The notes beneath the pieces are model-generated. The model had not been told where the DNA came from and did no database searches. It was given only the letters and a program-made list of their open reading frames with translations. A program made the position numbers and the translations under genes. Shown here piece after piece: positions 46,311-62,084 of a stretch of DNA of 64,000 nucleotides. Location: assembly GCF_964019805.1 (NCBI RefSeq), contig NZ_OZ026472.1:372001-436000 (forward strand). The letters are read 5' to 3'. Origin of the DNA: Candidatus Lariskella endosymbiont of Epinotia ramella (GTDB taxonomy: Bacteria; Pseudomonadota; Alphaproteobacteria; Rickettsiales; Midichloriaceae). Position 1 is the stretch's first letter; the number at the start of each line of letters is the position of its first letter.

Positions 46311-47501
46311 CTAAGCGCTTGCTTTGAGAAGTTTTACAGCAGAAAAATCATCAATATCTCCGCCAATAGCAGTCCTAGCGAAAAACTTGATATTGGGTTT
46401 GCTTGTTAAGTTATCTCGTAGTATTTTTACTTCTCCCCTTCGAACTATAGTGTAAAACCTAGAAAAGTCGCCAAATGCTATAGATAAACTTCCTTCTTTG
46501 AGTTGTGGCATATCAGATGATTGTAAAACTGCGGCACCAAAAAGTGTATCAGGTGAGCCTGAGCTAGTGCTAGGTTGCCATATATAATTCTCGTTTTTAT
46601 CTTTTAGCATTCTGATAGTTTGAAGTGCGCTTCTACTCATCAAAAATTTTGCGTTATGCGCATATTTCTCATCAATGCTAAAAAATAGCTTCAAAATGCT
46701 GTCTATGTTATAATTACCAGCTATCCCAGAGTTTATTTGTTCTACTTTACTATTGCTAGAGCCATTTGGATACGAAAGTATTCCCATAGGCTTGCCAGTT
46801 CCGTTTCCATTTATGAAAGCTGAGTTTGCTTTTGAAGCTAATATGTTAGATAGTTTTCTTACTATGTATTCTTCTATATCTATTCTTGGATCGTCTATAA
46901 TGGCTTGTGATATTTCTGGTTGAGCATATATTCTGTGTGCAACTATGGATTTTTTCCTTATTTTTACTGTGTCTGTTTTGTCAGAATTCGATTCAAAATC
47001 TTGAGTCCAGCTGGCTGATGTGTTTGAATCATCAGATATTAGTTCAAGTGAATCAGTAGATATCTCCATAACATTGCATATTTTGAGCATTGGAGAGATA
47101 GATTCCATGAAATTTGACATTTGTGAAGACATTTGATTGGTAATGCTATATCCTGCATCACTAAAGTCATTGAAGCTTTTAGTTTCAAGTGAAGATATTT
47201 CACTTTCTGTGCCTTTTTTAATATAACTATTAAATGCCTTTTGATATTTTAATTCTGATGAAGAGAGATTATACATTGGTGCAGTATTAAAGCGTGGACG
47301 AGCAAGGGCTGTTTCAATTCTTTCCAAGCTCGTTTTGTGTTCATCTATTGAATCGTTAATCTTTTTTATATGCTCTAGGGTGAGAGGATCTGCACTTCCT
47401 TTTTTTTCAATCTCTTTTTCTTTTCTATCATTTATTGATTTGAAATATTCCCATTCAGATGCAATTCTATTTATTGTTTCGTTTATTTCTTGTAAATTCA
47501 T
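46311..47501 (-). CDS. HK97-type major capsid protein, gene-transfer-agent-like (RcGTA g5 type)
   Basis: Phage-type shell protein of 396 residues. The N-terminal coiled delta domain (about 1-80, EKEIEKKGSADPLTLEHIKKIND) is followed by a linker and the HK97 fold: SASWTQDFESNSDKT, YAQPEISQAIIDDPRIDIEEY, FINGNGTGKPMGIL, FLMSRSALQTIR, WQPSTSSGSPDTLFGAAVL and the C-terminal IAFGDFSRFYTIVRRGEVKILRDNLTSKPNIKFFARTAIGGDIDDFSAVKLLK. These strings parallel the Rhodobacter GTA capsid as I remember it, including IEKR(S)AAD and the FGDFxRGY region. The frame is intact. Its protease lies upstream on the same strand at 49.5-50.1 kb. Confidence 0.9.
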   Translation of the reverse strand: MNLQEINETINRIASEWEYFKSINDRKEKEIEKKGSADPLTLEHIKKINDSIDEHKTSLERIETALARPRFNTAPMYNLSSSELKYQKAFNSYIKKGTESEISSLETKSFNDFSDAGYSITNQMSSQMSNFMESISPMLKICNVMEISTDSLELISDDSNTSASWTQDFESNSDKTDTVKIRKKSIVAHRIYAQPEISQAIIDDPRIDIEEYIVRKLSNILASKANSAFINGNGTGKPMGILSYPNGSSNSKVEQINSGIAGNYNIDSILKLFFSIDEKYAHNAKFLMSRSALQTIRMLKDKNENYIWQPSTSSGSPDTLFGAAVLQSSDMPQLKEGSLSIAFGDFSRFYTIVRRGEVKILRDNLTSKPNIKFFARTAIGGDIDDFSAVKLLKASA

Positions 47502-48058
47502 AGATTATGGATATTTTTATGTTGAGTGATAAAGTGATATCTGATGTTTAATTGTATATTTTTATAAATTCTAAAAATAACTTAGTGCTTTAATTATATT
47601 GCTTAAAAGTTTCTCATACTATTCTTTTGTTAATAGTGCCTAGTCATACCTTACAAAATTAGCATCGTAAAAATGTTCCTTATGTATTCATTCATACTTG
47701 CGCACCATTCTTCCTAGTTCTTTTTAAAGTCTGACTTCGTATGTATACTGAATAAATACAAATTATTCAGTTGCCTGCGATGTATATGTATTTCAAAGAG
47801 TTGTATAAAGAACAAGTAAGTAACTAGTCATTCACTAAGTTATTTTTTAGAATTGGTGTTCAAACTTCATTTGTGATATTTCTAATTTTTAGTTGCAGAA
47901 ATAATAAAGTTGATCTAAAACAGTGGCTTGTGTTAATTAAGCATTTGATTTGCGAATGTTTCATTATTTAGGGTAATTTTAACCTTCTGCAAAAATTTAT
48001 TTGTGCAGAAAATCAATTGTTGACGGGTAGACTACATACTCTTTTAGTATATATGTAA
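47502..48058. repeat. Intergenic region between capsid gene and IS256 copy 3
   Basis: No gene. Bases 47690-47765 (ATGTATTCATTCATACTTGCG...CTTCCTAGTTCTTTTTAAAGTCTGACTTCGTATG) are an inverted copy of the repeat at 18975-19080. Bases 47985-48035 hold a palindromic module (CAAAAATTTATTTGTGCAG...AATCAATTGTTGACGGGTAGACTAC). The last 30 bases (ACTCTTTTAGTATATATG) probably contained the original tRNA-Val promoter. Confidence 0.6.
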
Positions 48059-48066
48059 ATAATTTG

Positions 48067-49393
48067 GAGTCTTTATCAAAGATTGTGTAAATTATAGTAG
48101 AGCCTATATTTGGAATTAATAAAGAATATAGGTAATTAGAATGAAGACAGAAAAGAATAAGAAAATAAATGAAGCGATAGATTTACTGATAGAAGGAGGA
48201 GCGGATTTAAAGACAGTACTGAAGCAGGATGGATTGATTAAGGAATTAACGAAGAGTATTTTGGAGAGAGCCTTGCAGGCAGAAATGTCTGAACACTTAG
48301 GTTATAACAAATATGATAGGTCTGAAACTGAGAATTGCAGGAATGGTCATTATAATAAGAATTTGATTACTGAGAATGGCAGTATCGAGTTAAATATTCC
48401 GCGAGATAGAGAAGGTAAATTTGCACCTGTAATTGTCTCCAAGAATCAAACAAGAATAGATGGTTTAGATCAAAAGATAATATCTCTGTATGCCAAGGGG
48501 ATGAGTTTGTCTGATATCAAGATCCAATTACAAGAATTATATGGAGCAGAAGTTAGTGAGAGTTTAATTAGTAGGGTTACAGATGATGTAATTGATGAGG
48601 TTAGAATTTGGCAGAGTAGACCTCTTGAACCATTATATCCTATAGTATATTTTGATTGTTTAATAGTTAAGGTAAGGCAAGATAAACAGATAATTAATAA
48701 ATCAGTATATGTTGCGCTGGGTATAGATTTACAGGGCCGGAAAGATATTTTAGGATTATGGATAAGTGAGAATGAAGGATCTAAATTCTGGCTTAGTAAT
48801 TTTACTGAATTGAAGAATCGAGGATTAAAAGATATATTAATTGCCTGTAGTGATAACCTGACTGGTATGTCTGAAGCTATATGCGCAAGTTATCCCAAAA
48901 CTGAGCATCAGCTTTGTATAGTACATCAAATTAGAAATAGCCTGAAGTATGTATCATATAAAGACAGAAAATTATTGGCATCAGATTTAAAGCTTATTTA
49001 TAGCTCTGCTACTGAAGATGAAGCGCATCTTGCCCTAGAATCTTTTGATAAGAAATGGAGTAAACGATATCCACATATAGCAAAATCCTGGTATAATAAT
49101 TGGGAGAATCTTGTAATATTTCTGCAATATCCAGAGAGTATCCGTAAGATAATTTACACTACAAATGCTATAGAATCGCTGAATAGTCAGTTGAGAAAAG
49201 TTACAAGAAATAAGCGTGTTTTCCCAAATGATGATTCGGTATTCAAGGTTTTATACCTAACGATTGATTATATTACCAAGAAATGGACCATGCCTATCTC
49301 TAACTGGAATGAAGCTATGGCTCATTTTATAATCAAATTTGATGGTAGAATTTAATGGCTCTAAAAAATTTACACAATCAATGAGAAAGACCC
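48067..49393 (+). mobile_element. IS256-family element, copy 3 (intact)
   Basis: GAGTCTTTATC at 48067 to AAAGACCC at 49393, 1327 bp (one base uncertain at the left end). The target duplication TAATTTG(G) is at 48060-48067 and 49394-49401, so the right duplicate ends on the first base of tRNA-Val. The only uninterrupted copy in the window, it differs from copies 1 and 2 by a few bases near the 3' end. Confidence 0.92.
48141..49355 (+). CDS. IS256-family (Mutator-type) transposase, intact
   Basis: 404-residue DDE transposase. The N-terminal DNA-binding part includes SILERALQAEMSEHLGYNKY and CRNGHYNKNLITENGSIELNIPRDREG; catalytic segments are IVYFDCLIVKVR (first Asp), IACSDNLTGMSEAI (second Asp) and TTNAIESLNSQLRK (Glu), with the C-terminal AMAHFIIKF. 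The predicted C-terminus reads FDGRI instead of FDGRF in copies 1 and 2. It can presumably supply transposase to the interrupted copies. Confidence 0.92.
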   Translation: MKTEKNKKINEAIDLLIEGGADLKTVLKQDGLIKELTKSILERALQAEMSEHLGYNKYDRSETENCRNGHYNKNLITENGSIELNIPRDREGKFAPVIVSKNQTRIDGLDQKIISLYAKGMSLSDIKIQLQELYGAEVSESLISRVTDDVIDEVRIWQSRPLEPLYPIVYFDCLIVKVRQDKQIINKSVYVALGIDLQGRKDILGLWISENEGSKFWLSNFTELKNRGLKDILIACSDNLTGMSEAICASYPKTEHQLCIVHQIRNSLKYVSYKDRKLLASDLKLIYSSATEDEAHLALESFDKKWSKRYPHIAKSWYNNWENLVIFLQYPESIRKIIYTTNAIESLNSQLRKVTRNKRVFPNDDSVFKVLYLTIDYITKKWTMPISNWNEAMAHFIIKFDGRI

Positions 49394-49400
49394 TAATTTG

Positions 49401-49477
49401 GGGCGGTTAGCTCAGTTGGTTAGAGCGCTACGTTGACATCGTAGAGGTCAGTGGTTCGAATCCGCTACCGCCCACCA
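49401..49477 (+). tRNA. tRNA-Val (anticodon GAC)
   Basis: 77 bases with encoded CCA. GGGCGGT pairs with ACCGCCC; the D arm has TTAGCTCAGTTGGTTAGAGC; the anticodon stem CTACG/CGTAG presents GAC; the T arm has GTGGTTCGAATCC. The IS256 right end stops 7 bases before the tRNA (target duplication in between), so the native promoter has been displaced by 1.3 kb. Confidence 0.97.
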
Positions 49478-49484
49478 TTTATTG

Positions 49485-50051
49485 TTAAATCCAATTTAGT
49501 TTCGTTGCAGCTTGCTCAAGCTTTTTTGCGTTCTCGCTTAATGCTTTTAGATCTATATCTGTAATCTTTGCTTCTTTATTAGCTGCGAAAGTCACGAGGC
49601 TTACTTCCCATAATTTTATCTTGCGTATATATCTAATGTTTCCTTTGTGAAAAAAGTCCTCTGCGTTATATCCTATGCTCATGTGTTTTATTACGCCTTT
49701 TTTTATAAGAAAATATGCCTCTCTTCCTTGTGACAGGTCTAATAATATTTGACATTCGACATAGAGTCCGTGCTTATCTTCATATAGCGTATTTACTCTT
49801 CCTATTGGCTTTAATGTATCGTGTTGCCAAAGTAGTCGTATTTTCTCTGGATATTTGAGGTTGTCTCTAAATGCTCCTGGCATGACTAAATCATTTGTAT
49901 TGTCTTTGACATTGAATACACTTGCGTATCCTGAAAATCTTCCTTCATCATCAATGGCTTTGGATTGTTCATTTATTTTATTTGCTTGTTTAATAAGAGT
50001 TTTATTATCATATTGGATTGATGCTCCGTATGTTGTATATGTATGTTTCAT
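49485..50051 (-). CDS. HK97-type prohead protease, gene-transfer-agent-like (RcGTA g4 type)
   Basis: Phage maturation protease (family U35-like) that cleaves the capsid N-terminal domain. From Met at 50051 it has 188 residues: GRFSGYASVFNVKDNTNDLVMPGAF, WQHDTLKPIGRV with His77, IKHMSIGYNAEDF with Ser125, and LWEVSLVTFAANKEAKI with Glu149, the expected His/Ser/Glu arrangement. Upstream in-frame Met codons at 50105 and 50126 are possible; I prefer 50051 because it leaves space for promoters toward the divergent EVE gene. On the minus strand it precedes the capsid gene, as g4 precedes g5 in RcGTA; portal and terminase genes are not here. Confidence 0.88.
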   Translation of the reverse strand: MKHTYTTYGASIQYDNKTLIKQANKINEQSKAIDDEGRFSGYASVFNVKDNTNDLVMPGAFRDNLKYPEKIRLLWQHDTLKPIGRVNTLYEDKHGLYVECQILLDLSQGREAYFLIKKGVIKHMSIGYNAEDFFHKGNIRYIRKIKLWEVSLVTFAANKEAKITDIDLKALSENAKKLEQAATKLNWI

Positions 50052-50120
50052 ACGGAAATTTGCGTTATTATTTAAGTTTTGCGAGTTTATCAGAAAATCT
50101 TTCATAAATTTACACTTTAT

Positions 50121-50525
50121 ATGCAATGTTGGCTTTTAAAATCAGAACCTGCGTGTTATTCTTGGCTTGATATACAATCTGACAAAACCACGGTTTGGGA
50201 TGGTGTTAGAAATTTTCAAGCAAGAAATTTTATGAAACAGATGCAAATTGGAGATTTATGTCTTTTTTACGAGTCTAGTCCAACAAAAGCTATTATGGGA
50301 GTGCTTGAAGTGATAAAAACATATTATCAAGACAAAAATGATGAGAATTTTGTTGTAGTAGATGTGCAATATGTTAAATCTCTCAGAAAACAAGTGAGGT
50401 TAGAGCAGATAAAAAAAGATTGTGAGATCGAAGGATTAATACTGACAACGCAGCCGAGACTCTCTGTTATGCCTGTTTCTGAGTGGAATTGGAAGCGAAT
50501 AATTGAGCTATCAGAAGTGTTTTAG
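50121..50525 (+). CDS. EVE-domain protein (PUA-like fold)
   Basis: 134 residues starting MQCWLLKSEPACYSW. EVE domains resemble YTH and PUA folds and are thought to bind modified nucleic-acid bases; the cellular role is unsettled. Seen: WLLKSEP near the start, WDGVRNFQARNFMKQMQIGDLCLFYESS, and VMPVSEWNWKRIIEL at the end, all diagnostic. The frame is open upstream of the ATG, but those 14 codons overlap the protease and are not family-like. It diverges from the protease gene with about 70 bases between them. Confidence 0.92.
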   Translation: MQCWLLKSEPACYSWLDIQSDKTTVWDGVRNFQARNFMKQMQIGDLCLFYESSPTKAIMGVLEVIKTYYQDKNDENFVVVDVQYVKSLRKQVRLEQIKKDCEIEGLILTTQPRLSVMPVSEWNWKRIIELSEVF

Positions 50526-53997: not shown

Positions 53998-55008
53998 TTA
54001 GAGTGACCACTTTGACCTTGGTATAGCATCAAGATTATCGTGCATTCCTAATTTTAACCTTTCAATTCCACCCCAAGCTATCATGGCAGCGTTATCTGTA
54101 CATAAGTGAATAGGTGGGGAATGTAATGTAAAACCATGGCTTTGGCAAAAATTCTCTAATTTTGAATATATATATCTATTAGCAGCAACTCCACCTGCTA
54201 TGACTACATCTTTTGAATGAGGGTAAAGTGAGCTGAAAATTTCGATTGCAACATCTAGTTTTTTAGCCAATATTTCTGAAATTGTATGCTGTAAGGAGGC
54301 ACACATATTTGCAACATCTTTTTGATTATTGAGGTCTAACTTTAGTATTACATGACGAGCTGCAGTTTTAAGTCCAGAAAATGAAAAATCGCACGTGCGA
54401 TAAGAACAGAGTGGCATTGGAAGACGAAATGAATGTGGATCACCTGTCTTGGCAATTTTTTCAATAATTGGGCCGCCTGGATATCCGAGCCCTAACATTT
54501 TTGATATTTTATCGAAAGCTTCGCCAACAGCGTCATCTTTAGTTTGTCCCAGCTTTTTATAAGTACCAATGCCTTCTGCTATTAAAATTTGGCAGTGTCC
54601 ACCAGAAAGCATCATCAATAGATATGGAAACTGTATGTCCTCAAGCAGCCTAATCGAAAGAGCATGTCCTTCTAAATGATTCATAGCAATTAGAGGTTTT
54701 TTTATTGCAGATGCAATACCCTTTGCAAACATAAGGCCAACTATTACACCTCCTATTAGTCCTGGGCCTGCAGTTGCGGCTACACCATCTAATTTATCAA
54801 GAGGGATGCAAGATTCATTTAGTGCTCTAATCATAAGCTCTGGCAACATCTTCATATGACTACGTGCTGCAATTTCTGGAACTACACCACCGAAATTTAT
54901 ATGTTCCTCGATTTGCGAGAAAAGTTGGTTGCTGATTATATTCCGATTTGAGTCAACTATTGCAACTGCACTATCATCACAGCTGCTCTCGATTCCAAGA
55001 ACTATCAT
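53998..55008 (-). CDS. tsaD: tRNA N6-adenosine threonylcarbamoyltransferase
   Basis: Transfers threonylcarbamoyl to A37 of ANN-decoding tRNAs, with TsaB and TsaE. From MIVLGIESSCDDS (55008; a longer frame reaches 55065 but is not family-like) it has 336 residues. The metal-binding HxxxH is His111/His115 in MNHLEGHAL; GVAATAGPGLIGG, LSGGHCQI, CSYRTCDFSFSGLKTA and VVIAGGVAANRYI are conserved. Essential in most bacteria. Confidence 0.97.
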   Translation of the reverse strand: MIVLGIESSCDDSAVAIVDSNRNIISNQLFSQIEEHINFGGVVPEIAARSHMKMLPELMIRALNESCIPLDKLDGVAATAGPGLIGGVIVGLMFAKGIASAIKKPLIAMNHLEGHALSIRLLEDIQFPYLLMMLSGGHCQILIAEGIGTYKKLGQTKDDAVGEAFDKISKMLGLGYPGGPIIEKIAKTGDPHSFRLPMPLCSYRTCDFSFSGLKTAARHVILKLDLNNQKDVANMCASLQHTISEILAKKLDVAIEIFSSLYPHSKDVVIAGGVAANRYIYSKLENFCQSHGFTLHSPPIHLCTDNAAMIAWGGIERLKLGMHDNLDAIPRSKWSL

Positions 55009-55514
55009 ATAATAAACTTCTAATACATTTGAATTAGTACTAAATGTATCACTACAAATTGACATGCTAATACATTTGTAAACGATAAGATGTCTATAAG
55101 CGTGTTTGAGCCTTGAGTTTTCAAGTAGTAAAATTGTTTTAGCAGATTAAAAAACTAGTAAGCTACTCATTGGATACTCATAATACTTTTCAAAATTGAT
55201 GTTATCAATTCTTGCGGATAAGTTAAATGTACAAAAATTAGCTTGTAGATCTGCCCTACGCGAATTTTCGGATATATTAATGGCCATATGCTGTAAATGC
55301 TACTTTCACAAAATCCGTTATAACATTTCCTTACGGATTTAAAACACTATTTTGATACTCTAAACATTATTTTATGCCGCTTCTGAGATTTTTGGCGCGC
55401 GTACTACTTAAAATGCTCATTATGTATTTTATATACACATGCGCATACCTATTCTTCTTAACACGAATGTATGGCAGATTTTTTATAGTACAAAGGGAAA
55501 ACAAACATTACATA
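55009..55514. repeat. Intergenic composite repeat between tsaD and tRNA-Ser
   Basis: No gene. The composite unit at about 55195-55402 reads AAGTTAAATGTACAAAAATTAGCTTG...GCGAATTTTCGGATATAT, then GCTACTTTCACAAAATCC, CCTTACGGATTTAAAACACTATTTTGA and GCTTCTGAGATTTTTGGCGCG, almost the same as 46030-46220. A segment near 55405-55480 (AAAATGCTCATTATGTATTTTATATACACA) resembles 58700-58760. Confidence 0.7.
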
Positions 55515-55604
55515 TGGCGGAAGAAAAGGGATTTGAACCCTTGATACCCTTGCGGGTAAACACGCTTTCCAGGCGTGCGCCTTAAACCACTCGGCCATTC
55601 TTCC
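55515..55604 (-). tRNA. tRNA-Ser (anticodon GGA)
   Basis: 90 bases on the minus strand with encoded CCA. GGAAGAA pairs with TTCTTCC; the anticodon stem ACGCCT/AGCGT region presents GGA; the long variable arm (GTTTACCCGCAAGGGTA) marks a class II tRNA; T arm AGGGTTCAAATCCC. Confidence 0.97.
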
Positions 55605-55627
55605 AACAGTTAGCTTGAACCAATGGA

Positions 55628-55656
55628 ATTATATAAAATTACTACACAGAAGGCAA
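55628..55656 (-). promoter_or_regulatory. Promoter of tRNA-Ser
   Basis: On the minus strand TTGCCT (55656-55651), a 17-base spacer and a perfect TATAAT (55633-55628) lie 23 bases before the tRNA. The -35 box falls within the last codons of the upstream kinase gene. Confidence 0.7.
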
Positions 55657-58431
55657 CTTAATTACAAATTCTGTAAATACATTTTGTTCAGAAATGCATT
55701 CTATAGAACCACCCATGTTAGATATCAGTATTTCACAGAAGGCCAGGCCTATACCATTACCTGCAGCGTTGCCGCTATAAAAAGGCTGAAATAATTTGTA
55801 TAGCATCTCAGGTTTAATTCCGTAGCCGTCGTCTTGAAAATGCAGAGAATTGTCTGCGATCCATATCTTAATGGTTGCATGATCTCCTGCGTATTTCAGA
55901 GCATTTGTCATTAAATTGTTAAAGACTTGTTTAATATACTGTTTTGGACCACAAAAGTAAAAGTCGTTTGCTTTATCAAAGATAATCCTATTTCGCTGTG
56001 CCTTGCTAAGCGAGTATGTCATTATATAATCATCAAGTGCACTATTTATAGTTTCTCGCATTGAATGCACTTTATCATCTTGCGCTACCTTATGTTTGAG
56101 CAACAGTAGAAGAAGTTCAACAACTTTTTGTCCTTCTCTTGAAGTGTTTACAAGATTCTTTGGCAAAAAATCAAATAAAATATGGAAATCTCTTTCATCA
56201 AATGCACAGTGATATTCTACACCTTTTTCAGATTCAACTTTTTGAGCTCTGATTTTAAAATCTGCTGTTACAATATCCAAAGTCTCAGCAAGCATCTGTA
56301 TTGCAGCAAGTGGTGTTTTCACTTCATGAGCAATCGCGCCTCCAAATATTTCCATTTGTGTTACTTTGTGAGCAGCAGCCTTTTCTTTTCCTCTTATAAA
56401 CACTATGATTATAAGCATCAAAAATGCGTACAAATATCCTATGAGATATATGTCATGTGATGTAAGGTTGCTTGTGATCTGGTTTGGGCTGATTACATAA
56501 AAGCAGACATAACCTAGAGCGACTCCTATTGAGGTTAAAACTACAAAGCTTAGAGAATCAACTAGAAGTCCAAGAAGAATTACAGAAAGTACTGTATTGA
56601 GTAACCAAAACTCATCCATTTCAGTTACAAAAAAAGTGTAAGTTGCGACAAATGGAAGGCAAAACAGAAGAGATATATACCAATAAAATGCGAAAAATTT
56701 CTTCTTAATGTTGTGAGGCCAGTAATCTGCAAATATTAAGCCTACACATAAGAATATTGCAATAGTTCTGAAGTATACTAATGCATTATCTGGGTCGTTA
56801 AATGTGATATTAGTAATAAAAAATGGAATCAGATAATGAAAAATAACAAAAATACTAAAAGTATAATTTCTTATCTCATTACGTTTTATACGATTTCTTA
56901 CTATATCCAGTACTATGCGAAAGTTGCTTAGGTAAAATAGCGATGACATAAACAAATTTCTAGATAGTGTGCTGTAAAATTTCATCACTTCTACAAAGTT
57001 AGGATGAGAGTTACTTAGTTCATCATCTTCGAGAGTTTGTCTCAAAAGCCCTGTGTGCAACTGCAGGTAATGTGATCCAAATAACCCTATTGTGCTACCA
57101 ACTAATCCTCCTATAAAACTGATTAGATCAAAGTCCTGCCTGAAGTAAGCAATAGATGACGTAGAAATGACTGCAAATATTGCGGAGGCTATGTATGATA
57201 TATAGTTTGTTTTGAGACTCAAGAATCCTGCTATTAACGGAACTAAAACCAGAGGTTCCCAAAAATTGCTAGCTATCCAATCAAGTTCTACCAATCCCTT
57301 CCCATAGAGAGCAAGATATATAGCAATACAACCAATCAAGACTGTTGTTGTTCTTGCAACAAGTAATTCTTGAGCATCGCTTAAATTTGGAAATAAGTGC
57401 TTGATTATATCACGAGCCGTCAGTACACCTGAGTAATTCAGCCATGAATCTGCAGTTGACATCAAAATCGCGAGCAGTGCAACGATCAATAAGCCTTTTA
57501 AACCTGGTGAGAGATAATTGTCTATAAAATAGACAAATACAGTGTCAGATGCGATATCGGGTGCTTTTATTTGTATTAGGAACCCTATAATACATAAGAC
57601 GCCTAAAAATGGAAAGTTGACAAGTGCAACTATCTTCAGTACCCTGCTTAGCTGTTTCCTGCTAGATGCCATAAGAAAGCGTTGTATAAAAGCCCCACCT
57701 ACATCTGGTACTAAGCCGTATATTATAAGGCTAACAAAAAAAATAAGGTTTTGTGCAGAAGATAAATTAAGCTCTAAATGCTGTGGTGGAATTTTATCTA
57801 TAATGTTTGAATAGCCGCCAAGATCATGATATAGAAACGAGCATGCAATTGGTACTGCAATCATAAAGATTGCAAATTGTAATACGTCTGTTAGTACAAT
57901 AGCTCTTACACCACCAAAAGCAGAGTATAATATTGTTACCATCATGCCGATTATAACGGAATAGTGTAGTGCAATGCCAGAGAAATAATTGAGAACTTGA
58001 CCAATTGCTAGTGCTTGAATTGATGTTGCAACTATTGCAACAATTAGAGCTGTACAATTAGTAACCCATTTGCCAACATGACCATAAAGTTTTTCCATTA
58101 TATCGCTGATTGTAATACAATCATGGAATTTCTCTATGTTGACTGCAAAAATACGAATAGTAATGAGCCAAAACAGCGGTGCAAACATTCTAGGTACAGC
58201 AAATAAGAGTCCAATACTATATACTTTATCTACTGTCCCTATTGTATAGGCTGCTCCAGCGAAAGTTGCAAAGATTGTAGAAACCATCAGCACATCGTGA
58301 AAAGAGCCCTTTCCAACGGCATATTCCTTGATGTTTAATACTGCTCTAGATTTATAAAGCCCAAGAATCAAGCATACAGCAAGATACAGCACTATTATGA
58401 CAATATCGGTTGTATGTAATCCCTTAATCAT
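55642..58431 (-). CDS. Sodium/solute symporter fused to a sensor histidine kinase
   Basis: 929 residues in three parts. Residues 1-480 form a sodium:solute symporter domain (PutP/SLC5 type) with about 12-13 hydrophobic helices (for example AVGKGSFHDVLMVSTIFATFAGA and SLIIYGLVPDVGGAFIQRF). Residues about 510-690 form a second set of about six helices, loosely like the membrane sensor of CqsS/LqsS-type kinases. Residues 690-929 are a histidine kinase: H-box with His702 (GAIAHEVKTPLAA), N-box FNNLMTNALKY, G1 DDGYGI and G2 GNGIGLAF. There is no receiver domain, so phosphate must go to a separate response regulator, none of which is nearby. CrbS-like proteins share the symporter-kinase idea. The ligand is unknown. 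Confidence 0.9.
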   Translation of the reverse strand: MIKGLHTTDIVIIVLYLAVCLILGLYKSRAVLNIKEYAVGKGSFHDVLMVSTIFATFAGAAYTIGTVDKVYSIGLLFAVPRMFAPLFWLITIRIFAVNIEKFHDCITISDIMEKLYGHVGKWVTNCTALIVAIVATSIQALAIGQVLNYFSGIALHYSVIIGMMVTILYSAFGGVRAIVLTDVLQFAIFMIAVPIACSFLYHDLGGYSNIIDKIPPQHLELNLSSAQNLIFFVSLIIYGLVPDVGGAFIQRFLMASSRKQLSRVLKIVALVNFPFLGVLCIIGFLIQIKAPDIASDTVFVYFIDNYLSPGLKGLLIVALLAILMSTADSWLNYSGVLTARDIIKHLFPNLSDAQELLVARTTTVLIGCIAIYLALYGKGLVELDWIASNFWEPLVLVPLIAGFLSLKTNYISYIASAIFAVISTSSIAYFRQDFDLISFIGGLVGSTIGLFGSHYLQLHTGLLRQTLEDDELSNSHPNFVEVMKFYSTLSRNLFMSSLFYLSNFRIVLDIVRNRIKRNEIRNYTFSIFVIFHYLIPFFITNITFNDPDNALVYFRTIAIFLCVGLIFADYWPHNIKKKFFAFYWYISLLFCLPFVATYTFFVTEMDEFWLLNTVLSVILLGLLVDSLSFVVLTSIGVALGYVCFYVISPNQITSNLTSHDIYLIGYLYAFLMLIIIVFIRGKEKAAAHKVTQMEIFGGAIAHEVKTPLAAIQMLAETLDIVTADFKIRAQKVESEKGVEYHCAFDERDFHILFDFLPKNLVNTSREGQKVVELLLLLLKHKVAQDDKVHSMRETINSALDDYIMTYSLSKAQRNRIIFDKANDFYFCGPKQYIKQVFNNLMTNALKYAGDHATIKIWIADNSLHFQDDGYGIKPEMLYKLFQPFYSGNAAGNGIGLAFCEILISNMGGSIECISEQNVFTEFVIKLPSV

Positions 58432-59308
58432 AGTTTGAAAATTTATAAATGGTATTTTATACAGTTTTTAATAAAACAACTCTAAGTCTGACTATGTTAG
58501 TATTAAAAGTAAAGCGTAGCATGCCCTGCGTAACATTAAAGAATAGACTCTTTTGATTAGTTTTTCGAGCATTTTTAATAACATTGTAATGTGTTGTTAA
58601 TTTATTTTTATCTTGCATACGCAATACCCCCATATAACAATGATGCAACCTATGTGTGTTATACAAAAGTGCTGTATACTCGTCATGCTTTTCAAAATTG
58701 GCGCTTTGTGAGAATGCGTCTTATGTATTTCGTTAAACGTATTGCGCCTAAATTCTTCCTAGCTATTTTTGAAGTCTCATGAAATACCAACTCTTCATTT
58801 TACCTGTGATATGGTGCTGCCGGCAAAGTCACTTGTGCAGACTTTTTTGGGCCTGATTTTCCATATTATACTAGCTCTCCCAAATAACAGAACACTTTAG
58901 CTTCGTCTTTTCTTTAAAATTTAAATGCGCTTATGGCAGCTTTACTTCTAGTACAGCTAAACTCAAATCTCATCTTAATTTTTCTAAAGAATACGCAGCA
59001 AATATACGCTGTTATTTAAGGAGTTGGTTATTACTTCGTTAATTCCTTCGCAAATGTATAAAAGTATTTGATTCAGAAATTAACTTTGTACACTAAAAAA
59101 TTATGCCATCAAAATCCACACGCGTGCACTTACTTAAGGTGGTTCAATATACCTTTCTTGAATAATAGAGCTTGATAAGCTCAAGTGCAATTAGCGCTTC
59201 AAATTCTCAAAATTACGTGTTTTTAGCACTATTTTAAAGTTAGAAAGTAACGTGTATTTTGAGAAAAGAAGCTGCAGCTTATTACATCAAGTATGTTATC
59301 TACTGATA
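58432..59308. repeat. 877-base region without a gene, dispersed repeats
   Basis: Bases 58660-58800 (GTATACTCGTCATGCTTTTCAAAATTGGCGC...CTTCCTAGCTATTTTTGAAGTCTCATGAAATACCAACTCTTCATT) are an inverse relative of 22990-23140. Bases 58810-58870 (CTGCCGGCAAAGTCACTTGTGCAG...GGGCCTGATTTTC) and 59035-59130 (inverse of the 22540-22655 type) follow. Bases 59200-59260 hold an imperfect inverted repeat (AAATTACGTGTTTTTAGC...GTAACGTGTATTTTGAG). No start codon with a credible protein was found. Confidence 0.55.
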
Positions 59309-60181
59309 TTACTTTAACAATTCGGACATAGTTTTGCCTATCAAGCCTGGAGAATCAGCGACTTTGATTCCAGCACTTTTTAATGCTTCTATCTTGCTTT
59401 CTGCCGTATCATCTCCCCCTGATACAATGGCGCCAGCATGTCCCATCCTTCTGCCGGGAGGAGCTGTTCTTCCAGCTATAAACCCAACAGTTGGTTTTTT
59501 AATCTTATGATTTTTTATGAAATGCGCAGCATCAGCTTCTGCACTCCCACCGATCTCTCCTATCATAACTATAGCTTGTGTTTCTGCATCATTTAAAAAC
59601 ATCTCTATGACGTCGATAAAATTTGTTCCGTTGAGTGGATCTCCACCTATTCCAACACAAGTAGTCTGACCTAAACCTTCTGCAGTTGTTTGAGCGACAG
59701 CTTCATAAGTTAATGTACCAGACCTTGAAACGATACCCACGACTCCTTTCTTATGTATATACCCTGGCATGATTCCTATTTTACATTCACCAACTGTTAT
59801 AACACCAGGACAGTTTGGACCAACTAGGCGTGTTTTTGATCTTAGAAGTGCTCGCTTCACTTTCAGCATATCAAGCACAGGAATACCTTCTGTAATACAA
59901 ACTACTAACGGAATCTCTGCATCTATCGCTTCAAGTATAGCATCAGCTGCAAATGGAGCAGGAACGTATATAACTGATGCATCAGCACCAGTCTTCGCTT
60001 TTGCATCGTAAACTGTATCAAAGACAGGTAAATTCAGGTGCATTGTCCCACCTTTACCAGGCGTCACACCTCCTACCATACGCGTTCCGTATTCGATAGC
60101 TTGCTCTGAGTGAAAAGTACCGTTACGGCCTGTGAACCCTTGGCATATGACCTTTGTATGGGCGTTAACAAGTATTGACAT
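59309..60181 (-). CDS. sucD: Succinyl-CoA synthetase alpha subunit
   Basis: ADP/GDP-forming ligase subunit that binds CoA and carries the phosphohistidine, making ATP or GTP from succinyl-CoA. 290 residues: [58 protein letters not shown] and the phosphorylated His248 in [16 protein letters not shown] before the ATG. It lies 32 bases after sucC on the same strand, an operon. Confidence 0.97.
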
Positions 60182-60213: not shown

Positions 60214-61377
60214 TTATTTTATAGCATTGACTATTTTCTGTGTTGCATCAGATAAGTTCTCTGCTGCTTGGATATTACCAATGCCAGCTTTTTCGATCAC
60301 TTCTCTTCCAGCATCTGCATTCGTTCCTTCAAGCCTTACAACTACTGGGACAGTAACTTTGCAATCCTTCATTGCTTGTATTACGCCGTTTGCGACGATA
60401 TCACATTTAACGATGCCACCAAATATGTTTATAAGAATCCCACGTACGCCACTATCTGATACAATGATATCAAATGCTGAACGTACTCTTTCTGTATCTG
60501 CGCCTCCTCCAATATCTAGAAAGTTTGCCGGAGACCCTCCAAACAGCTTGATTATATCCATAGTCGCCATCGCAAGACCAGCGCCATTTACCATACAACC
60601 TATATTTCCTTCCATGCGGACATAGTTAAGATCGCTCGACTCAGCTCTTGCCTCAAGCGGATCTTTCTCATCTATATCGTCTAATGCTGCTATATCTTTA
60701 TGTCTAAATAGTGCGCTAGAATCAAAGTTAAATTTTGCATCAAGTGCGATGAAGTCACCAGCTTTTGAAACAATAAGCGGATTTATTTCAACTTGACTTG
60801 CATCATTTTCTAAAAAAGCATTATAAAGCGGTCTTAGCACAGATGCAAATTTATTCGCAGTTGCAACATCAAATCCAGCGCCAAAAGCTAGCTTCCTAAT
60901 ATGGAAATCTTGCAGTCCTATAGCAGGATCAACGTGCACCTTAATAATCTTATCTGGAGTTTTGTGTGCTACCTCCTCTATATCCATCCCTCCTTCCAAA
61001 GAGAATATTATGGCGATGGATGCGCTATTACGATCTAAGACCAAAGAAAGATAATATTCTTTATCTATCTCAGAAGCAGATTCTATGTATACCTTCCTAA
61101 CAAGTTTTCCTTCTTTACCAGTTTGTTTTGTGACAAGACGCATGCCAAGTATCTGACTTGCTAAGGAGTGCACCTCATCAATGCTTTTTGCAAGTTTTAT
61201 GCCACCAGCTTTTCCTCTGCCGCCTGCATGGACCTGTGCTTTAACTACCCAGGCATTACCCTGTAAGTTTTTTGCGACATCAACTGCAGCATCAGCGCTT
61301 AGCGCAAGCCCTCCACTTGGAACATTAATGTTGTACTTTTTAAGTATCTCTTTTGCTTGATATTCGTGTATATCCAT
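60214..61377 (-). CDS. sucC: Succinyl-CoA synthetase beta subunit
   Basis: ATP-grasp subunit that binds nucleotide and succinate. From [17 protein letters not shown] (61377), with GAGG 6 bases upstream, it has 387 residues; a longer frame up to 61449 is not family-like. [41 protein letters not shown] and [10 protein letters not shown] are family signatures. Transcribed before sucD. Confidence 0.97.
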
Positions 61378-62084
61378 TTTTACCTCATTTCGGTCATGAT
61401 CAATAAAACAGCCTATAATTTTAAGATAGCGCGTTTTACACACATTCACATTATAACTATTTATAACAAGAATATTTTGTAATATGTAATGCTATTTATA
61501 TTCACGCAAAATTTCGTCATATCAGTAGTTATACTATGCGCAACAAAAAATAAATTTTAGAAGCATATCTTGGAAAAAAAACATGATCAATGTTTTAAAA
61601 ATTTCATACTTCTAAAAAATATTTTTGAAACACTTTATGAAGTTTCGGTATTTATAGCGTGAATCAAAAAACTACAATTTTGTTGAGGATATAATGAGTA
61701 ATAAATCAATATAATTCAAGTAATACTTGAGAGTTAAATATCCACAGATATATGAAGAGTTAGTATTTATTAAAGAAACATTTTGATGACGCCAATTTTT
61801 GAAGTGTGACGAGTATACTATCAATAATATTCTAATTTCAGTAAAAATCATAGTAAAAATATGGCTCTGTGCTCAAGTAAATGCAAGCGCATGAATTTTA
61901 ATAGTACGATTTTTTAGAGTACCAGTTAATTTCTGAATCAAATACTTTTATACTTTTATATATTTGCGAAGAAATTAACGAAGTAATATAGAGAATCAGG
62001 ATAGAAAGGTCTATACAATTATTTTGCCTGCAGTGCCTTAAATTAAGAAGCACAAATAGTGACAATAATCATGAAATACCAATC
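61378..62084. repeat. 707-base region without a gene, dispersed repeats
   Basis: No gene. Bases 61735-61810 (TATGAAGAGTTAGTATTTATTAAAG...GCCAATTTTTGAAGTGTGACGAGTATAC) belong to the 22990-23130 repeat type. Bases 61905-62005 (TTTTTTAGAGTACCAGTTAATTTCTGAATCAAATA...GAAATTAACGAAGTAATATAG) belong to the 22540-22655 type. The remaining 61380-61735 is A/T-rich; it contains whatever promoter drives sucCD. Confidence 0.55.

Follow-up and report, generated by a model that had tools for sequence, protein, structure and literature searches.

We describe here a 929-residue protein of the Candidatus Lariskella endosymbiont of Epinotia ramella (Rickettsiales, Midichloriaceae), which is encoded in a stretch of 64,000 nucleotides (hereafter referred to as the window; contig NZ_OZ026472.1, positions 372,001 to 436,000) and which is, on balance, probably a transporter-coupled sensor kinase: an SLC5 symporter is joined ahead of a receptor kinase of the CqsS type, and we infer that the two are coupled. 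A broader reading is offered more tentatively, as a possibility, namely that a Cqs/Lqs receptor kinase has been rebuilt as a sensor of nutrients or host metabolites. Its synthase would have gone, a fused or cotranscribed symporter would supply or report the signal, and the unit of symporter and six-transmembrane (6TM) module would have been multiplied and fitted with different kinases, being here part of one of two histidine kinases in a strongly reduced genome.

Architecture of the protein and homology of its middle module

The initial annotation had proposed that a single 929-codon frame joins a PutP/SLC5-like symporter, a second membrane module and a histidine kinase with His702 and the N and G boxes, and all of these parts were recovered. 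The open reading frame (ORF) runs from an ATG start to a TAG stop, is intact and is a real frame, not a chance one. A Pfam search of the protein found SSF at residues 37-377 (E 5e-23), HATPase_c at 832-927 (4.4e-19) and a weak HisKA match at 698-718 (1.4e-4, under the family cut-off); at E values up to 1, nothing beyond these three families was reported. In the symporter part, the hydropathy averaged over 22 relatives and the full-length AlphaFold model (11 rows; mean predicted local distance difference test score, pLDDT, 72.5; predicted template modelling score, pTM, 0.51) agreed on 13 helices, and Foldseek matched this part to SLC5 structures (CHT1, SiaT, SGLT and NIS; template modelling score on the target 0.81 for 5nv9). 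By the PF00474 match and this fold, residues 1-460 are a member of the SSF/SLC5 family, for which transport itself is predicted. His702, N843, D867, G891 and G893 were each kept in 20 of 22 related proteins and G869 in 21. Moreover, ten relatives with 32-39% identity aligned with the window protein, eight of them over all three parts; the remaining two of the ten (L083 and L080:11598-13925) stop inside the kinase, where their loci end. The linker, which was poorly modelled at about residues 463-520, had no Pfam family reported at 461-517, where the model is of low confidence and the presence of STAC in the library was unchecked.

The module between the symporter and the kinase consists of six helices (residues 522-543, 549-570, 573-602, 607-623, 626-647 and 658-687 by hydropathy and the model). 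It had been guessed that residues 490-700 resemble the CqsS/LqsS receptors, and several comparisons bear this out. Profile A3, which was built from the 6TM module of 22 Rickettsiales proteins, was searched against 398 genomes of the phylum and matched 20 of them at E <= 1e-3, two of which belong to the order. The remaining 18 genomes yielded 19 loci, and 18 of these carry a frame with the 6TM module and a kinase (401-723 aa within the locus, some being cut by the locus end); the exception, L072, lacks a kinase, and its 6TM match of 17 bits is probably spurious. Profile labelling placed a symporter in the same frame at none of the 19 outside loci, which span about 1500 bases on each side of the match, and an SSF gene that lies farther from the 6TM-kinase could escape. 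A single genus (g212) accounts for eight of the outside loci, whose frames are long (671-723 aa); a C-terminal receiver was confirmed by Pfam in L060 and is visible in the five of them that were aligned. One of these eight, L064, is 78% identical to a Vibrio campbellii gene, and since the gene next to the latter (locus L091) matches the CAI-1 synthase (E 7e-149 to 3hqt), these long proteins were identified as CqsS.

When A3 was compared with A7, a profile of 13 outside CqsS-like proteins, the two aligned over 149 columns with a probability of 99.4 and an E value of 8e-22, and in a tblastn search with the window protein alone Vibrio records were matched over residues 537-927 (E 7e-22). The profiles used for labelling (6TM, SSF and kinase) were built from alignment A1, which includes many of the labelled rows, and these rows match by construction; the test that is free of this circularity is a profile of 19 rows from outside the order only, to which the 6TM module of the window protein scored 56 bits (E 2e-17 in a search of a small set). 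The kinase scored 142 bits on the outside CqsS-like profile versus 71 on a crude generic one made of five sequences, and thus it scores as a CqsS-type rather than a generic kinase. Taken together, the homology of residues 518-690 to the CqsS sensor is supported by sequence comparison, and the likeness to LqsS is by description, with no named LqsS sequence among those compared. Reading residues 490-700 as extra SLC5 helices was rejected since some symporters lack them and some 6TM-kinases occur with no symporter; the own genome encodes one such symporter-only frame (L035, 439 aa), which has no six-helix module. Further symporter-only paralogues in this genome are L036 (2602-3816 and 4544-4921), L037 (2473-3965) and L038 (2299-3192), two of which are in two pieces and one of which is short.

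Structural comparison gave a less specific picture. The model of the 6TM module alone had a mean pLDDT of 72.1 and a pTM of 0.60, and its nine best structural rows were adenylyl cyclase 9 (AC9; seven rows), ImcA and Rv1625c, with a best Z of 11.7 over 183 residues for AC9 and of 7.5 over 106 residues for Rv1625c; a Foldseek search of this model against the PDB returned nothing better than E 0.3. For bundles of helices, Z values under about 13 may reflect no more than a common arrangement, and the likeness to the 6TM anchors of the class III adenylyl cyclases, best matches though they are, may be of this kind only. These matches fit the published anchor swap in which, according to the accessible part of the report, CqsS can functionally replace the 6TM anchor of Rv1625c (PMC4821796).

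Features of the window that are discussed in the text (A1, the alignment of related proteins; class A, rows with a CqsS-scoring kinase)
Feature	Coordinates	Strand	Evidence
Complete ORF, 929 aa: SLC5 symporter, CqsS-type 6TM module and histidine kinase	55642..58431	-	
SLC5/PutP-like symporter, residues 1-460, 13 helices	57052..58431	-	Pfam SSF, hydropathy, Foldseek
Linker, residues 461-517, short helices, low model confidence	56881..57051	-	structure model
CqsS-type six-helix sensor module, residues 518-690	56362..56880	-	profile homology, model
CqsS-type histidine kinase, residues 691-929	55645..56361	-	142 bits on CqsS-like profile vs 71 on generic
Codon of His702, predicted phospho-acceptor	56326..56328	-	H in 20/22 A1 rows and 24/24 class-A rows
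tRNA gene, downstream	55518..55604	-	Rfam RF00005, 61.8 bits
Dispersed repeat between sucD and the ORF (gap of 877 nt)	58669..59139		
sucD, upstream neighbour	59309..60181	-	
sucC	60214..61449	-	

Fusion, adjacency and apparent exchange of kinases within the order

Near-full-length matches to the window protein (query start <= 23 and end >= 845) numbered at least 53 in at least 24 of the 173 order genomes and belonged to five families among the matches listed; a stop codon occurs in two of these 53 rows (G120 and G165). The 6TM profile matched at least 45 of the 173 genomes at E <= 1e-4, with at least 11 matches in G033, at least eight in G152 and at least seven in G098, all copy numbers being lower bounds from at most 2, 5, 6 or 16 candidates scored per genome, depending on the search. 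The carriers include Candidatus Midichloria, Candidatus Jidaibacter, another Midichloriaceae bacterium, a Peranema endosymbiont and plasmids of Candidatus Megaira/Megaera. The fused genes on these plasmids lie at L092 5986-8778, L093 5986-8778 (both labelled by profile) and L168 3986-6775; L092 and L168 are annotated as "alkaline phosphatase", which looks like a misnomer, and one plasmid copy is annotated as "Solute carrier domain protein".

All 35 frames in the tree set that combine SSF, the 6TM module and a histidine kinase came from Rickettsiales. Additionally, the symporter and the 6TM-kinase were found as adjacent genes on the same strand at seven loci (L015, L018, L028, L050, L051, L153 and L154), with a spacing from a 32-nt overlap to 158 nt; the symporter frame of L051 is the C-terminal part alone (207 aa), and L009, L155 and L021, which look broken or cut, were left out of this count. 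At L050, the genes for an M32 peptidase, the symporter, the 6TM-kinase and a 308-aa regulator each overlap the next, and at L073 a regulator directly follows the fused gene. Both regulators matched, nearly over their full length, a profile of six regulators adjacent to CqsS-like kinases outside the order (166.6 bits for L050 and 178.5 bits for L073), and on the same profile PhoB scored 15.3 bits and NtrX 5.1 bits; Pfam at 1e-5 does not detect the L050 regulator. In the available part of its description, LqsR has a receiver at residues 80-160 and a C-terminal part without known homology, and its gene clusters with lqsA and lqsS (PMC3376566). The two regulators fit this published description and may therefore be called LqsR-like, with no named LqsR sequence among those compared. 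In two genomes outside the order (G212 and G329), the neighbourhood of the CqsS-like kinase and the regulator also includes a CqsA homologue (47% and 43% identical).

Within the order, 6TM-kinases without a symporter in the frame were also present (L048, L158, L159 and L160). In G139 and G169, such a kinase lies beside a Trp/Tyr permease gene, with a 5-nt overlap and a 121-nt gap, respectively. These CqsS-type kinases and permeases (L159 1589-3992 and L160 1378-3907) are a possible pairing with another transporter family.

Phylogenetic trees were built from 67 rows for the 6TM-kinase and 73 for SSF, after 6TM-kinase spans below 300 and SSF spans below 380 had been dropped; both were quick trees with long rows, and their branch order is provisional. 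A single fusion without later change was rejected since, on the starred branches, the fused label needs at least seven changes in the 6TM-kinase tree and at least ten in the SSF tree. A clade of fused proteins only was rejected with a p-AU of 9.6e-46, a figure that is inflated by kinase exchange and refers to a group chosen after the tree had been seen.

The kinases were divided into two classes among 48 Rickettsiales rows. Class A (24 rows) comprises the CqsS-scoring kinases, i.e., those of family f1, of the named Midichloriaceae and Peranema-symbiont rows and of L050 and L073, and class B (24 rows) comprises the generic-scoring ones of families f2, f7, f11, f17 and f25 and of the Megaera plasmids. 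The 6TM profile made from outside the order only was matched by 23 of the class-A rows and missed by one, and it was matched by 17 of the class-B rows (E <= 1e-3 in a small search; up to 71 bits) and missed by seven. Because both classes mostly match this profile, it seems from these comparisons that the symporter-6TM unit is constant and the kinase exchangeable, with a module that has diverged greatly in some rows. The phospho-acceptor histidine is absent from L023, L028 and L030, which belong to the generic-kinase set (family f11). These three are fused or split copies and may be non-kinase versions; L023 and L030 have C-terminal ends that resemble each other by eye.

Likely signalling partner and the weighing of alternative readings

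In the preferred reading, the binding or transport of a host-derived solute would change the state of the symporter, and the 6TM module, one per protomer of a dimer, would relay this state to the kinase helix at His702; alternatively, the module would add a second, lipophilic cue that is bound within the membrane. The helix would then shift between kinase and phosphatase, and phosphate would pass to a regulator of metabolism, for which the PhoB-like response regulator is the most likely candidate in this genome.

The choice of partner follows from a short inventory. An HATPase_c search of the own genome had five matches, namely the window protein, an NtrY-like protein with an NtrY_N domain, and GyrB, MutL and HtpG, the last three being named by eye from their sequences. 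The expectation that such a small genome keeps few kinases thus held, with two histidine kinases found by HATPase_c and other ATPase families not searched for. A search for response regulators, which had been suggested as a check, found two receivers by Response_reg: an NtrX-like protein (484 bits on the NtrX model, cut-off 600) and a PhoB-like one, which scored 279.7 bits on TIGR02154 (cut-off 296.2). Since NtrX is already paired with NtrY, the PhoB-like regulator is the most likely partner, by elimination only. The genome G569 (80% complete) has a single receiver protein, which is 59% identical to the PhoB-like one of the window genome. No LqsR-like regulator was found in the own genome, in a search that had no positive control and could miss a diverged one. 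In the parts of two reports that were available, three systems (PhoR-PhoB, NtrY-NtrX and EnvZ-OmpR) are listed for Candidatus Aquarickettsia, which also belongs to Rickettsiales (PMC6863919, PMC13128583).

Several observations weigh against the proposed reading. PhoB-like genes are common in the order with or without the 6TM module, and G060 has a 6TM-kinase and no close PhoB (best match 1.7e-27); hence, the pairing rests on elimination, and co-occurrence with PhoB was rejected as proof of it. Moreover, G152 has a PhoB-like gene (65% identical) near a separate histidine kinase. Neither part is uniform: in 24 of the 48 rows the kinase is not of the CqsS type, and eight of the 48 fail to match the outside-only 6TM profile clearly. 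Phenylalanine at the positions equivalent to 670 and 678, discussed below, occurs in just 9 and 8 of the 24 class-A rows, respectively, and most rows differ at one or both. The window gene may no longer be cotranscribed with sucD because of the repeat-bearing gap of 877 nt that lies between them. Finally, symporter-coupled sensing via the 6TM module, with a putative substrate, ligand and phosphotransfer step, is what we infer from sequence. At the G152 locus (L146 1968-5252), the PhoB-like gene is close to a gene for a 637-aa histidine kinase on the same strand; the own genome shows no third histidine kinase.

A somewhat doubtful alternative, though the strongest of those considered, is that the chain carries two independent inputs: the symporter simply imports its solute, control of the kinase falls separately to the 6TM module and a lipophilic ligand bound to it, and the fusion only co-localises or co-expresses the two. 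The symporter-less 6TM-kinases of the order and CqsS itself agree with this, as does the location of the specificity residues of CqsS within the 6TM module, where, according to the accessible text of two studies, ligand specificity is set at F162 and C170 of the V. cholerae protein (PMC3310172, PMC3285556). When these positions were placed by their distance from the phospho-acceptor histidine (His194 in the V. cholerae CqsS paper), they fell on F670 and F678 of the window protein, matching the Vibrio rows. However, the repeated fusion and adjacency of these two parts suggest more than co-expression.

It is more doubtful still that the 6TM module serves only to hold the kinase near the symporter, as a membrane anchor or spacer. 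The module is weakly conserved, with no invariant column across 22 rows, the residues at the ligand positions vary and the eight rows without a clear match to the outside-only profile point the same way. Nevertheless, most rows are still CqsS-like, e.g., W609 is kept in all 19 CqsS-like rows, in 20 of the 24 of class A and in 13 of the 24 of class B, and related modules serve as receptors and control a cyclase into which they are transplanted, as far as the available part of the report states (PMC4821796).

The homology to CqsS and the LqsR-like regulators beside two Rickettsiales copies might suggest a quorum-sensing receptor for alpha-hydroxyketone signals from the bacterium or its neighbours. 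In its simple form this reading is unlikely, with a slim chance at most, because none of the ten order genomes that were tested has a close CqsA: the listed matches are 22-28% identical (27% with E 9e-26 for the best one in the own genome) and are taken as other enzymes of the same fold, whereas four of the five outside genomes that encode CqsS-like kinases have a match of 43-54%. The fifth outside genome (G522) reaches at most 25%, and a receptor without a synthase is therefore not unique to Rickettsiales. In the window protein, as in the CqsS/LqsS kinases, a 6TM sensor leads straight into a kinase of one shared type, and the two are colinear across residues 537-927 of the window protein. In CqsS and LqsS this sensor is N-terminal and no other membrane domain is present, whereas the window protein adds a 460-residue symporter in front; unlike in those systems, no close CqsA accompanies it in the order genomes tested and no LqsR-like regulator was found in the own genome by the search described above.

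Membership among the well-described SLC5-STAC-PAS kinases is hardly credible: CbrA, CrbS/MxtR and RpuS likewise carry a symporter and a kinase on one chain, with a 13-helix SLC5 domain N-terminal to the histidine kinase, and CbrA is called a transceptor (PMC13022988), but according to the accessible descriptions they place STAC and PAS between the two (PMC7918813, PMC9100948). The window protein has six helices there, its kinase is of the CqsS type and no PAS family was found at E values up to 1, and for this last reason it does not have their layout; the departure from CrbS that the initial annotation had claimed thus holds, by comparison with descriptions and with no named CbrA or CrbS sequence compared.

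Whether this architecture is already well described was answered in two parts. SLC5-histidine kinase fusions of Rickettsia, Orientia and Occidentia are in print, as "BaeS-like" with data not shown in the available part of PMC5615194, and PutP with HisKA, HATPase_c and REC in such fusions is reported in the available part of PMC10732058. These are alike in the SLC5/PutP symporter, the histidine kinase and the multiplication in Rickettsiales, and in the accessible text there is no mention of a CqsS-type 6TM module, LqsR-like partners or linkage to sucD. A full-text search, with supplements and most subscription papers outside its reach, found no paper with both CqsS and Rickettsiales, and no description of a 6TM quorum-receptor module in SLC5-kinase fusions was found in the literature examined, parts of which were accessible. 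Because the fusion itself is already in print, only the CqsS-type middle module and its links would be new.

Genomic context and biological meaning

The gene comes after sucD in the two nearest 6TM-kinase relatives too, with a gap of 70 nt in L002 (the locus of L078, Candidatus Midichloria) and of 60 nt in L144 (G569, from the same family), and these two form one clade (99*) with the window protein. The sucD copy of L144 is supported by Pfam, and sucC lies upstream in L078 as well; at L085, the upstream gene (about 291 aa) encodes a cation efflux protein, not sucD. The gap sequence of the window has 72 matches in the own genome, itself included. The repeat family at 58669-59139 thus comprises up to 71 further matches in dozens of places, which are 70-93% identical over stretches. 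A scan for promoters and terminators in 55000-59500 found 16 and 3, respectively, versus 18.1 and 2.3 expected, and was uninformative. Alignment A2 likewise offered no segment of sufficient conservation with which to scan the collection. Many repeated frames of 156 and 122 aa, transposase-like by eye, occur in this genome. Elsewhere in the window, ORFs resembling a phage major capsid protein and a prohead protease were noted by eye at 46311-47501 and 49485-50126, with a transposase-like ORF between them (48141-49355), and the region 46311-50126 is perhaps a decayed prophage.

The protein is a concrete candidate for the means by which obligate intracellular Rickettsiales sense host metabolites, and it looks like a second route, besides SLC5-STAC-PAS, to a joined transporter and kinase. 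The genomes hold a natural series, i.e., separate genes with an LqsR-like regulator, a fusion with the regulator, a fusion alone and a fusion with another kinase, which makes the signal-carrying part testable. The 6TM receptor module is known for lipophilic signals, and a neighbouring transporter would be a possible new input for it. The many copies in related bacteria suggest that a cell-to-cell receptor may have been reused for imported or host-derived compounds.

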